Origin: Chelatococcus sp. YT9
Lineage (GTDB): Bacteria; Pseudomonadota; Alphaproteobacteria; Rhizobiales; Beijerinckiaceae
Length of the DNA stretch: 64,000 nucleotides
Assembly (NCBI RefSeq): GCF_018398315.1
Contig: NZ_JAHBRW010000001.1
Location: 2,550,501 to 2,614,500 of the forward strand
Reading direction: 5' to 3'
This document shows positions 53,060 through 56,648 of this stretch, one piece after another. The notes beneath the pieces were generated by a model. The model worked only from the letters and a program-made list of their open reading frames with translations, searched no databases and was not told the DNA's origin. The position numbers and the translations under genes were made by a program. Position 1 is the stretch's first letter, and each line of letters opens with the position of its first letter.

Positions 53060-53088
53060 TTGACCGGTTCAGGCCTCTCAACTAACGT
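53060..53088 (+). promoter_or_regulatory. Putative ilvB promoter
   Basis: TTGACC (53060-53065) and TAACGT (53083-53088) are separated by 17 bases. They are 5/6 and moderate matches to the sigma-70 consensus. Transcription from here would begin about 25 bases before the leader peptide start. Inferred from sequence only. Confidence 0.5.
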
Positions 53089-53119
53089 CACGCCAATTCA
53101 GGCTAAGGATGACGGGCGC

Positions 53120-53170
53120 ATGCGCGCGAAGCTTATTGTATCGGGGGCGCCATCGACGGAGCGGGACTGA
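53120..53170 (+). CDS. ilvB leader peptide (16 aa, Leu-Ile-Val control codons)
   Basis: A 16-codon frame encodes MRAKLIVSGAPSTERD. Codons 5 to 7 are CTT ATT GTA, that is Leu-Ile-Val in a row using codons that are uncommon in this GC-rich genome. AAGGA lies about 10 bases upstream. It is followed by a GCGGG/CCCGC hairpin overlapping the stop codon and then by a strong terminator. This is the arrangement of a transcription-attenuation leader, in which ribosome stalling at scarce branched-chain aminoacyl-tRNAs lets RNA polymerase read through. Attenuators of ilv operons are established in proteobacteria; this instance is inferred. Confidence 0.75.
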   Translation: MRAKLIVSGAPSTERD

Positions 53171-53197
53171 CCCGCAGGTCCGTTTGGTGGCGCATGC

Positions 53198-53221
53198 AAG
53201 GCTCCTTCGGGGGCCTTTTTT
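53198..53221 (+). terminator. Attenuator terminator upstream of ilvB
   Basis: AAGGCTCC (53198-53205) pairs with GGGGCCTT (53210-53217) around a TTCG tetraloop and is followed by a run of T. It lies between the leader peptide and the ilvB start, so it would stop transcription unless relieved. GCATGCGC at 53118-53125 is complementary to GCGCATGC just before the terminator and is one candidate for an alternative pairing. Confidence 0.85.
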
Positions 53222-53292
53222 GTTGCCCGATGCGGATCCGGACCCCTCCAGCGCGACGCACTACGGAGCGATTTCCACTCGGAGCGAATTCC

Positions 53293-55089
53293 ATGAGCAA
53301 GACCAAGAGCGAAACGGTGAGCGAAACAGCAGACGAGATCATGAGCGGCGCCGAGATGGTCGTGCGGGCGCTTCAGGACCAGGGCGTCGAGCATCTTTTC
53401 GGCTATCCCGGCGGCGCCGTGCTGCCGATCTATGACGCGCTGTTCCATCAGGAGACCATTCGCCACATTCTCGTTCGGCATGAGCAGGCGGCGGTGCATG
53501 CCGCCGAAGGCTACGCCCGGTCGTCAGGCAAGGTCGGCTGTGTGCTCGTGACGTCAGGCCCTGGCGCGACGAACGCCGTCACCGGCTTGACCGATGCGCT
53601 CATGGACTCGATTCCGGTCGTCTGTATCACCGGTCAGGTGGCCACGCATCTGATCGGCTCCGACGCCTTTCAGGAGGCGGACACCGTCGGCATCACCCGC
53701 CATTGCACCAAGCACAACTACCTCGTTAAGCGCATCGAGGATCTGCCGCGCATCCTGCACGAGGCCTTCTACGTGGCGTCGCACGGCCGCCCCGGACCGG
53801 TCGTCATTGACATCCCAAAGGATATCCAGTTCGCCAAGGGGGCGTATGCCCGGCCAACGGACAACCAGCACAAGACCTACCGTCCGGTGGTGTCCGGCGA
53901 CATGGAGAAGATCCGCGCCGCGGTCGCACTGATGGCCTCAGCCAAGCGCCCGATCTTCTACACTGGCGGCGGCGTCATCAACTCCGGTCCGGAAGCGGCC
54001 TCTCTGCTGCGCGAACTCGTGCGCCTGACGGGTTTCCCGATCACCTCGACCCTGATGGGGCTCGGCGCCTATCCGGCGTCCGACAGCCAGTTCCTCGGAA
54101 TGCTGGGCATGCATGGCACCTATGAGGCCAATCATGCCATGCATGACTGCGACGTCATGATCAATATCGGCGCGCGCTTCGACGACCGCATCACCGGCCG
54201 CATCGATGCGTTCTCGCCCGGCTCACGAAAGATCCACATCGATATCGATCCCTCGTCAATCAACAAGAATGTCAAGGCTGATATCGGCATCGTGGGCGAT
54301 TGCGCCCATGTGCTCGAGGACATGCTGCGCGTCTGGAAGGGCTTGCCAAAGGACGTCGAGAAGCCGAGCCTGAAGAACTGGTGGGGCAAGATCGCGGGAT
54401 GGCGCGCCCGCAACTGTCTCGCCTATCGTCCCTCGGACACGGTCATCAAGCCGCAGTACGCGTTGGAGCGTCTACAGGCCCTGACGGAAGGGCGCGAAAC
54501 CTACATCACGACGGAAGTCGGCCAGCACCAGATGTGGGCGGCGCAGTTCCTGAAGTTCGACAAGCCGAACCGATGGATGACCTCCGGCGGCCTCGGGACC
54601 ATGGGTTACGGCCTGCCGGCAGCCATTGGCGCGCAGATCGCCCATCCTGAGGCGCTTGTCATCGACGTGGCGGGCGAGGCCTCCATCCTCATGAACATGC
54701 AGGAAATGTCGACTGCATTGCAGCACCGTCTGCCGATCAAGGTCTTCATCCTGAACAATGAGTACATGGGTATGGTGCGCCAGTGGCAGGAGCTGCTGCA
54801 CGGCGGCCGCTATTCGGAAAGCTATTCGCATTCGCTTCCGGATTTCGTGAAGCTGGCTGAGGCTTACGGCGGCGTCGGCATTCGCTGCGAGAACCCCGCA
54901 GATCTCGACGAGGCGATCCTCGAAATGATCAACTCGCCGCGCCCGGTGATCTTCGACTGCATCGTCGACAAGATGGAGAACTGCTTCCCGATGATCCCGT
55001 CGGGCAAGGCCCACAACGAGATGATCCTCGGCGATGCCGTCGAGGACATCGGCGCCATCATTGATGAAAAGGGCAAGATGCTGGTGTGA
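53293..55089 (+). CDS. ilvB: Acetolactate synthase large subunit
   Basis: Thiamine-diphosphate enzyme of 598 residues catalysing the first common step of valine, leucine and isoleucine synthesis. The N-terminal domain has GYPGGAVLPIYDAL and the catalytic-Glu region HEQAAVHAAEGYARSSGKVG. The FAD/middle domain has FLGMLGMHGTYEAN, and the C-terminal ThDP domain starts GGLGTMGYGLPAAIGA with LNNEYMGMVRQWQ. The metal-binding motif reads GEAS where many enzymes have GDGS. ATG 53293 with GGAGCGA upstream is the start; an upstream frame through the terminator is not credible. Probably controlled by the leader at 53120. Confidence 0.96.
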   Translation: MSKTKSETVSETADEIMSGAEMVVRALQDQGVEHLFGYPGGAVLPIYDALFHQETIRHILVRHEQAAVHAAEGYARSSGKVGCVLVTSGPGATNAVTGLTDALMDSIPVVCITGQVATHLIGSDAFQEADTVGITRHCTKHNYLVKRIEDLPRILHEAFYVASHGRPGPVVIDIPKDIQFAKGAYARPTDNQHKTYRPVVSGDMEKIRAAVALMASAKRPIFYTGGGVINSGPEAASLLRELVRLTGFPITSTLMGLGAYPASDSQFLGMLGMHGTYEANHAMHDCDVMINIGARFDDRITGRIDAFSPGSRKIHIDIDPSSINKNVKADIGIVGDCAHVLEDMLRVWKGLPKDVEKPSLKNWWGKIAGWRARNCLAYRPSDTVIKPQYALERLQALTEGRETYITTEVGQHQMWAAQFLKFDKPNRWMTSGGLGTMGYGLPAAIGAQIAHPEALVIDVAGEASILMNMQEMSTALQHRLPIKVFILNNEYMGMVRQWQELLHGGRYSESYSHSLPDFVKLAEAYGGVGIRCENPADLDEAILEMINSPRPVIFDCIVDKMENCFPMIPSGKAHNEMILGDAVEDIGAIIDEKGKMLV

Positions 55090-55285: not shown

Positions 55286-55378
55286 GCGCGGTGATCGTTG
55301 CCCTCACAATTTTTCATTGGAACGGATGAACGTCCAGCGTCACGGTCAATGACCACCACATCCAGCACGGAACGTCCC

Positions 55379-56074
55379 ATGCCGACCCTCGTCATCGCCA
55401 ACAAGCTCTATTCCTCATGGTCTATGCGGCCATGGCTTCTCCTGCGTCAGCTCGGCATTCCTTTCGAGGAGGTGCTCATTCCGCTCGCGCAGCCCGACAC
55501 CAAGGAACGCATCCTTGCGCTGTCGCCCGGCGGCACGGTGCCGATCCTGATCGACGACGGTGCCACCGTCTGGGAATCGTCGGCTATCATGGACTATGCG
55601 CACGAGCGTTGGCCCGAGGCCGGCGTATGGCCTGCGGACCGGATCGCACGCGCGGTAGCGCGCTCCATTTCCGGAGAGATGCACGCAGGGTTCCGTGGCT
55701 TGCGATCCGCCTGCCCGATGAATCTCGGCAAGATCTATGAGCCTCGCGATCGCGGCCCGGACGTGCAGCGCGACGTCGATCGTATCACGACGATCTGGCG
55801 CGATGCCCGCAAGCGCTTCGGGGCGGGCGGCGCCTTCCTGTTCGGGGCGTTCTCCGCCGCGGATGCAATGTTCGCCCCTGTGGTGACGCGCTTCATCTCG
55901 TATTCGATCCCTGTCGAGCCGGATATCCGCGAATACATGGATGCCGTCACTGGCACGGCCGCTTTCCAGGAATGGAAGGACGCGGCCTTGAAGGAAACAT
56001 GGGTCGTCGCCCATGACGAGCCGGATGAGCCCGTCCTGACCGACCTCAGGCCCAATCTTTCTCGAAAGCCCTGA
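55379..56074 (+). CDS. Glutathione S-transferase family protein
   Basis: Protein of 231 residues. The N-terminal thioredoxin-like domain has the opening LVIANKLYSSWSMRPWLLLRQLGIPFEEVLIPL and the VPILIDDGATVWESSAIMDYAHE cis-Pro and Glu-Ser glutathione-binding motif. The helical C-terminal domain includes FLFGAFSAADAMFAPVVTR. ATG 55379 is preferred because the upstream frame crosses the intergenic repeat. A GST between ilvB and ilvN is common in Hyphomicrobiales; a role in branched-chain amino acid metabolism is not implied. Confidence 0.9.
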   Translation: MPTLVIANKLYSSWSMRPWLLLRQLGIPFEEVLIPLAQPDTKERILALSPGGTVPILIDDGATVWESSAIMDYAHERWPEAGVWPADRIARAVARSISGEMHAGFRGLRSACPMNLGKIYEPRDRGPDVQRDVDRITTIWRDARKRFGAGGAFLFGAFSAADAMFAPVVTRFISYSIPVEPDIREYMDAVTGTAAFQEWKDAALKETWVVAHDEPDEPVLTDLRPNLSRKP

Positions 56075-56114
56075 TAACATGCGTCATTTTCCACCACCTT
56101 CACGAGGGAACCCC

Positions 56115-56648
56115 ATGTCGTCCGTCTATTCGGATCCGCCGCCCGCCGCTCCCGTGTCGCGCCACACCCTCGCGGTCATCGTCGACAACGAGCCAGGGGT
56201 TCTCGCCCGCATCGCGGGTCTGTTCTCGGGGCGCGGCTACAATATCGAGAGCCTGACGGTCTCGGAGACGGAACACGAGAAGCACCTTTCGCGCATCACC
56301 ATCGTCACGACGGGAACAGAGGCCGAGATCGAGCAGATCAAGGCCCAGCTCGCGCGGCTTGTGCCCGTGCATCGGGTGCGCGATCTTTCTGACGAAGGGC
56401 CGACGATCGAGCGCGAGCTCGTGCTTCTGAAGGTGGTGGGGCAGGGGGATCAGCGTGTCGAGGCCTTGCGGCTGGCGCAGGCCTTCGGCGCGCGCACGCT
56501 CGACGCGACGTTGTCGTCCTTCGTGTTCGAATTCACGGGTGCCCTCGACGACGTCGAGCGCTTCATCGGCATCATGGCGGATTGCGGCCTCGTCGAGGTC
56601 TCCCGCACCGGCGTCGCGGCCATGAGCCGCGGCGCGGAGGCGATGTGA
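56115..56648 (+). CDS. ilvN: Acetolactate synthase small (regulatory) subunit
   Basis: Regulatory subunit of 177 residues that confers valine feedback inhibition. The ACT domain starts RHTLAVIVDNEPGVLARIAGLFSGRGYNIESLTV and is followed by ITIVTTGTEAEIEQIKAQL. The C-terminal part ERELVLLKVV and FEFTGALDDVERFI matches the IlvH/IlvN family. GAGGGAACCCC precedes ATG 56115. It is 40 bases after the GST gene; DUF924 follows on the opposite strand. Confidence 0.94.
   Translation: MSSVYSDPPPAAPVSRHTLAVIVDNEPGVLARIAGLFSGRGYNIESLTVSETEHEKHLSRITIVTTGTEAEIEQIKAQLARLVPVHRVRDLSDEGPTIERELVLLKVVGQGDQRVEALRLAQAFGARTLDATLSSFVFEFTGALDDVERFIGIMADCGLVEVSRTGVAAMSRGAEAM

Follow-up and report, generated by a model that had tools for sequence, protein, structure and literature searches.

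What lies directly upstream of the acetolactate synthase gene ilvB in Chelatococcus sp. YT9, and does it control that gene? In the 64,000-nt stretch of DNA analysed here (hereafter the window), an earlier note had described a 16-codon reading frame with consecutive CTT ATT GTA codons, a hairpin over its stop codon and a UUCG-loop terminator 5' of ilvB, and had read them together as a leader-mediated attenuator. All of these parts are present in the sequence (Table 1). The leader-attenuation reading of the region, as first proposed, is partly supported: the leader is real and conserved, and it very probably switches ilvB on when leucine, isoleucine or valine (L/I/V) runs short.

Table 1. Features of the ilvB leader locus and neighbouring genes, in window coordinates
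Feature	Position	Strand	Evidence or remark
-35-like TTGACC	53060-53065	+	TTGAC position conserved in leaders
-10-like TAACGT	53083-53088	+	Predicted start near 53095; identical in L017, L018 and L024 of the genus
AAGGA, probable leader ribosome binding site	53105-53109	+	Sequence; ends 10 bases 5' of the start
Leader peptide ORF MRAKLIVSGAPSTERD	53120-53170	+	16 codons plus TGA; same place in relatives
Codons of the leader ORF	53120-53170		ATG CGC GCG AAG CTT ATT GTA TCG GGG GCG CCA TCG ACG GAG CGG GAC TGA
Control codons CTT ATT GTA (Leu-Ile-Val)	53132-53140	+	One codon per amino acid
Hairpin A (1:2), leader TGA in its top	53147-53193	+	Coevolution and fold score
Intrinsic terminator (3:4), UUCG loop and T tract	53198-53221	+	Hairpin itself 53198-53217
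GTTGCC directly 3' of the T tract	53222-53227	+	[AG]TTGCC in 78/116 unique leaders
ilvB/ilvI, acetolactate synthase large subunit, presumed regulated gene	53293-55089	+	NCBIfam NF006581, 1126.9 bits, cut-off 974
ilvN/ilvH, acetolactate synthase small subunit	56079-56648, start uncertain	+	NF008864, 207.8 bits, cut-off 119, for 56115-56645

The terminator is built from the arms AAGGCTCC-TTCG-GGGGCCTT with a T tract reaching 53221, and 4 bases separate it from hairpin A. The sequence also contains an exact 8-base complement of GCATGCGC (53118-53125) with GCGCATGC (53190-53197). The segment comprising both hairpins (53141-53221) folds better than 200/200 shuffles (z -4.21); the fold of the wider stretch 53100-53260 is unremarkable (z -1.29), with 20/200 shuffles being equally good. 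The hexamer that follows the T tract sits past the expected transcription end, both in the window and in the 78 of 116 unique leaders that carry [AG]TTGCC. The combined motif T6-RTTGCC is found at two sites in the whole genome, the other one lying 3' of a repeat that resembles a terminator and is itself downstream of a small ORF (L145).

The genes ilvB and ilvN are usually adjacent; in the window, an ORF on the same strand (55298-56074, +) that appears glutathione S-transferase-like by eye lies between them, and ilvC follows 3' of ilvN at about 57386. Among the matches listed, which may omit the window's own records, the best named relative of ilvB is that of Chelatococcus asaccharovorans (96%).

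The promoter-like pair upstream of the leader recurs in relatives. In 73 of the 116 unique leaders, TTGAC is located 75 to 66 nt 5' of the first control codon, and the 140 nt before the run contain 125 occurrences across these 116 leaders, versus 12 expected by shuffling. A -35/-10-like pair is present in 76/116 leaders, and in 58 of them the predicted start falls 40 to 31 bases 5' of the run. A generic promoter scan did not report the window's pair, because TAACGT fits the -10 consensus at 3/6 positions. Based on the position-conserved pair, transcription is predicted to start upstream of the leader, near 53095, and not 3' of 53221, as the attenuation proposal would require.

Conservation upstream of ilvB and the RF02502 family

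Our sample comprised 60 genomes, namely the window's own and 59 relatives picked by kinship, and ilvB was found in 60/60. A leader with an L/I/V run followed by a terminator is present 5' of ilvB in 51 of the 60, the window's own genome included, and the expectation that both features would be kept in relatives was thus borne out. These include 36/36 genomes within the window's family and 15/24 in other families of the order, and the nine genomes in which the detector used found no leader element are all outside the window's family. A search with the Rfam family RF02502 (Atu_C8) matched 34/60 genomes, five of them above the family's cut-off. In the 30 loci fetched as RF02502 matches, ilvB adjoins in 30/30, and at least three consecutive L/I/V codons are present in 30/30. 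When the stretch 5' of ilvB was read in the remaining 30 genomes, leader and terminator were present in 21 and missing in 9.

Counted by locus, the combination of ORF and terminator precedes ilvB in 107/110, a set that joins the 30 RF02502-matched loci to 80 more retrieved through ilvB alone. In the latter group, some members of which come from genomes of the 60-genome sample, 77/80 have leader and terminator; the three loci without them are L057 and, each with a split run (NIITLV), L094 and L103. On the reverse strand, used as a control, 0/110 loci have an ORF with a terminator, and five shuffles gave 0 each. The occurrence of this combination before ilvB is not chance. Control runs of 2, 3, 4, 5 and 6 codons are found in 2, 28, 66, 17 and 3 of the 116 unique leaders, respectively. 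The three control codons of the window, which had been described as a compact form, do lie at the short end of this range, but they are not unusual, as three-codon runs account for 28/116.

Outside the order, a class-wide draw provided 76 upstream stretches, two of which were too short. The detector was positive in 4 of the 74 usable stretches versus 1 on the reverse-strand control, and an enclosed stop codon is seen in just two of the positives, L242 and L256. In the same draw, L266 carries MTTQLVLIRQPLSGRD without the T tract that the detector requires, and the detector therefore misses some leaders.

RF02502 is also the Rfam family that the stretch itself matches best, aligned end to end (model 1-122) at 37 bits (E 4.7e-05). 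The curated gathering score of the family is 50 bits, and the window's leader, being below it, is not filed as a member; three other genomes of the genus score 33 to 36.9 bits. In G034, G032 and G028, additional weak hits to RF02502 (L141-L143; E 7.7e-4 to 5.7e-3) turned out to be terminators without an L/I/V leader and were rejected as false positives.

A second family, that of genome G058, was represented by 101 genomes. RF02502 is found at E 0.001 in 96/101 of these, above the cut-off in 92, and ilvB is matched at E 1e-180 in 96/101; both are present in the same 96 genomes, and the same five genomes (1.2-2.0 Mb) have neither. Almost all of the RF02502 matches (97/99) are located 26 to 493 bases 5' of an ilvB match, the same place as in the window. 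One of the two exceptions lies 5' of a diverged ilvB copy (L221) and the other 5' of an ORF that is transporter-like by eye (L220). In a second set of fetched RF02502 loci, ilvB adjoins in 29/29, and together with the first set 59/59 loci have at least three consecutive L/I/V codons. The 'Rhizobiales sRNA' RF02502 and the window's leader are evidently elements of one kind, which gives a named Rfam sRNA family, across the families searched, a specific cis location ahead of the acetolactate synthase gene. A literature search that covered few subscription papers found no paper linking RF02502 to ilvB, and RF02502 is counted among sRNA families in the available excerpt of a 2018 benchmark (PMC5913331).

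Several further occurrences were seen in these genomes. Diverged second copies of ilvB have a leader of their own, as in L144 (G058) and L221/L174 (G122), and the ilvB match in G122 is split in two (residues 11-189 and 382-556). The copy in L220 (1403-1522; genome G088) is a second RF02502 copy that scores 107.9 bits and has an L/I/V leader before an ORF resembling a multidrug transporter by eye. Two small genomes of the second family, G065 (1.1 Mb) and G131 (1.9 Mb), have kept ilvB and the leader, with scores of 44.9 and 70.9 bits.

If the element were a stand-alone small RNA, as the name Atu_C8 says, its place before ilvB would be incidental. The typing of its best Rfam match as 'Gene; sRNA' would fit such an RNA, as would a promoter-like pair and a terminator that bound the element. 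However, ilvB adjoins in every fetched locus of both sets (30/30 and 29/29), 97/99 matches in the second family lie before ilvB, and a run of at least three L/I/V codons occurs in all 59 fetched loci, whereas a bare sRNA needs no in-frame L/I/V codons. We consider a stand-alone sRNA extremely unlikely.

Codon choice in the control run

Within the control runs of the 116 unique leaders, valine is encoded by GTA in 130/170 cases, versus 44/4128 in the ilvB genes of the same loci, a codon background that is present for 98/116 leaders. The preference is also seen in 50 divergent leaders (GTA 58/77). Of 132 leucine control codons, 92 are CTT and 34 are CTC, with CTT making up 225/4234 in ilvB, and of 153 isoleucine control codons, 74 are ATT and 77 are ATC, with ATT making up 336/3599 in ilvB. 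CTA, TTA and ATA occur in the control runs 0, 1 and 2 times, respectively, and all three are rarer than GTA in ilvB. Leaving out L101, L104, L094 and L103 (split run) gives GTA 128/164 and CTT 90/130. The contrast is less marked when 47 long ORFs from the window serve as the background (GTA 5.7%, CTT 15.7%, ATT 15.8%, ATA 8.4%).

The GTA preference is not universal, as the valine codons in 30 leaders of the second family are GTG in 46 and GTA in 15 of 69 cases, the corresponding shares in ilvB there being 19.7% and 1.5%. In addition, the bias extends beyond the run, since GTA makes up 13/55 of the valine codons 3' of it; most of these are GTG and GTC (39/55), and GTA accounts for 0/25 valine codons 5' of the run. 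The window's genome has 45 tRNA matches, including one Val tRNA each with UAC, GAC and CAC and one Leu tRNA each with UAA, CAA, UAG, CAG and GAG; no Ile tRNA is named among these 45. A strong codon bias in attenuators, explained by selective charging, has been published, as stated in the available part of PMC1183508. The leader collection forms a clean control-codon data set that bears on the selective-charging theory as given in that part, with CTA, TTA and ATA nearly missing and GTA and CTT enriched.

Codons 3' of the run vary alike at their three positions (mean entropy 1.28, 1.32 and 1.41 bits in 40 divergent leaders), and this equal variation gives no sign of selection on the peptide itself. 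The same figures bear on the possibility of an attenuator whose terminated RNA or peptide would also act in trans. Since RF02502 was named as an sRNA, its terminated product has presumably been detected, which would be a point for a trans-acting product. A precedent reported within the same order is rnTrpL/peTrpL of S. meliloti (PMC10117765, PMC7298713). With no sign of a conserved peptide among the 40 divergent leaders, however, we regard an additional function in trans as unlikely.

Pairing of the arms and the proposed switch

Hairpin A encloses the stop codon in 115/116 unique leaders. In an alignment-free swap test across 50 divergent leaders, each arm was paired with its own partner and with the partners of other leaders; this test cannot judge pairing between invariant segments. 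The arms of hairpin A pair at -19.2 kcal/mol with their own partners versus -11.8 kcal/mol with swapped ones (z -23.8), and those of the terminator at -13.7 versus -12.0 kcal/mol (z -8.1). RNAalifold predicted 11 pairs in a 48-row alignment, 7 of them with changes on both sides; the number of pairs is small because MAFFT leaves the upper hairpin unaligned. Both hairpins thus coevolve, and some compensatory change in the stems, for which the earlier note had suggested looking, is present. It is worth noting that three leaders with the wrong frame or arm by eye (L101, L104 and L094) were dropped from the 50 divergent leaders in the folding, the occupancy controls and the 607-pair scan, and were retained in the swap test, the GCATGCGC/GCGCATGC pairing count and the codon counts.

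No antiterminator pairing with clear coevolution was found among 22 fixed segment pairs (both hairpins included), by masked folding, with swap and shuffle controls or among 607 pairs of sequence windows; run on 47 leaders, this last scan showed a clear gain only for hairpin A and the terminator. Between the left arm of the terminator and the 3' arm of hairpin A, complementarity is if anything below that of swapped pairs (z +3.5), and the control codons also pair with this left arm worse than swapped (z +3.5). The segment 5' of the leader pairs with the 3' arm of hairpin A slightly better than swapped (z -2.0). Occupancy of the terminator left arm by upstream RNA is 0.49 as observed, 0.53 when swapped and 0.56 with shuffled sequence.

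The alternative pairing of GCATGCGC with GCGCATGC had been put forward as part of the attenuator, and it does not hold as a general structure: it is unconserved and does not coevolve (z -1.0), and at least 7 bp are formed in 0/50 divergent leaders (swapped expectation 2.3). An 8-bp match is seen in three leaders from the genus, among them the window's. On the start side, TGCGC weakly co-occurs with GCGCA in the 3' arm (39/52 leaders with versus 36/63 without TGCGC; one-sided p 0.035; 115 leaders). This co-occurrence vanishes in the 50 divergent leaders (p 0.35) and is read here as kinship. The best non-hairpin pair, between the 5' arm of hairpin A and the linker plus the start of the left arm, was 0.76 kcal/mol better than swapped (z -3.8 on 12 permutations); as the top value among several hundred pairs, it was not counted as evidence.

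We also folded transcripts ending after the terminator left arm in 47 leaders, assuming that the front edge of the ribosome lies 13 nt past the A-site codon. In this model, when the ribosome occupies the first control codon, hairpin A is formed at 0.92 and the left arm is paired at 0.12; when it occupies the last control codon, the values are 0.11 for hairpin A and 0.50 for the left arm, whose main pairing partner is then the 3' arm of hairpin A. The modelled shift from 0.12 to 0.50 is in the direction expected for starvation, and hairpin A is placed for disruption by a translating ribosome, a disruption that the folding predicts. With the ribosome on the stop codon, the modelled occupancy of the left arm is 0.51, and without a ribosome it is 0.54, mostly by RNA 5' of the control codons and with hairpin A formed at 0.90. 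Because the left arm is half occupied in both of these states, the model alone fails to distinguish amino acid sufficiency from starvation, and termination under sufficiency must therefore depend on speed, a following ribosome or some factor outside the model. The full terminator, once transcribed, prevails in all modelled ribosome states (0.84-0.88).

A terminator that forms regardless of ribosome state under simple thermodynamic folding, together with a 607-pair scan in which no clear antiterminator was seen, would suit a plain terminator preceded by a chance ORF, with constitutive partial termination before ilvB. By contrast, the L/I/V run, the codon bias and the enclosed stop are conserved (51/60 genomes; 115/116 leaders), versus 0/110 on the reverse strand, and a chance ORF appears highly improbable.

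We consider it very likely that the element functions here as a ribosome-mediated transcription attenuator for ilvB. Transcription would start near the predicted 53095, and a ribosome would translate the 16-codon leader. When leucine, isoleucine and valine are ample, the ribosome would pass CTT ATT GTA, reach the stop codon in hairpin A and leave, after which the terminator would form and transcription would end around 53221. If too little charged Leu-, Ile- or Val-tRNA is available, the ribosome would stall on the control codons with its front edge covering the base of hairpin A; the freed 3' arm of hairpin A would then hinder the terminator, and RNA polymerase would continue into ilvB. The steps that we infer are translation of the leader, ribosome stalling, which way the response runs and, most of all, the means by which the terminator is blocked or spared. 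The direction of the switch is taken by analogy from the known kind of system, and our confidence in the attenuator explanation is for this reason held slightly lower than it would otherwise be.

We give a small but real chance to a variant that has two hairpins and no dedicated antiterminator. In such an attenuator, hairpin A would shield the left arm from the surrounding GC-rich RNA, and ribosome stalling at the last control codon would break the shield, with sensitivity being set by tRNA isoacceptors (GUA Val, CUU/CUC Leu) and not merely by the rarest codons. In the folding model, however, the left arm is half occupied without a ribosome even though hairpin A is formed, so that hairpin A alone is an insufficient shield there.

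Comparison with known systems

Attenuation of alphaproteobacterial ilv operons is already published, and the window's leader adds a very probable further case. A 2004 study by Vitreschak reportedly predicted that the ilvIH operon of alphaproteobacteria is governed by branched-chain-dependent attenuators. Among papers available as excerpts, one describes attenuation of Caulobacter ilvBN via an upstream leader, citing Tarleton 1994 (PMC4117421), one lists an 'ilvIH cis regulatory' element for S. meliloti, citing Vitreschak 2004 (PMC2573895), and one calls the alphaproteobacterial 'ilvB leader peptide' previously described (PMC1273637). The window's leader resembles these ilvIH/ilvBN attenuators, with a short branched-chain-codon leader, a terminator and the acetolactate synthase gene in the same order, and it comes from the same bacterial class. 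It is unlike them in that its control region is just Leu-Ile-Val, one codon each, a comparison in which their details come from excerpts of the citing papers; these excerpts mention neither this host nor its genus.

Higher-scoring members of RF02502 likewise have leaders such as MKNSAVILVVGRRMGRMV and are located before ilvB; by contrast, the family is entered in Rfam as an sRNA gene and not as a leader, and the window's 37 bits are below the curated 50. The ilvBN and ilvGMEDA leaders of E. coli share the ribosome-mediated logic, with control codons ahead of a terminator, but they have 32 residues, of which 11 and 15 are branched-chain (PMC6123439, available excerpt), whereas the window's leader has 16 residues with 3. 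Also comparable is the trp attenuator rnTrpL/peTrpL of S. meliloti, a compact leader attenuator from the same order with 14 residues, as given in the available part of PMC10117765, although it serves another amino acid and another operon than the window's leader.
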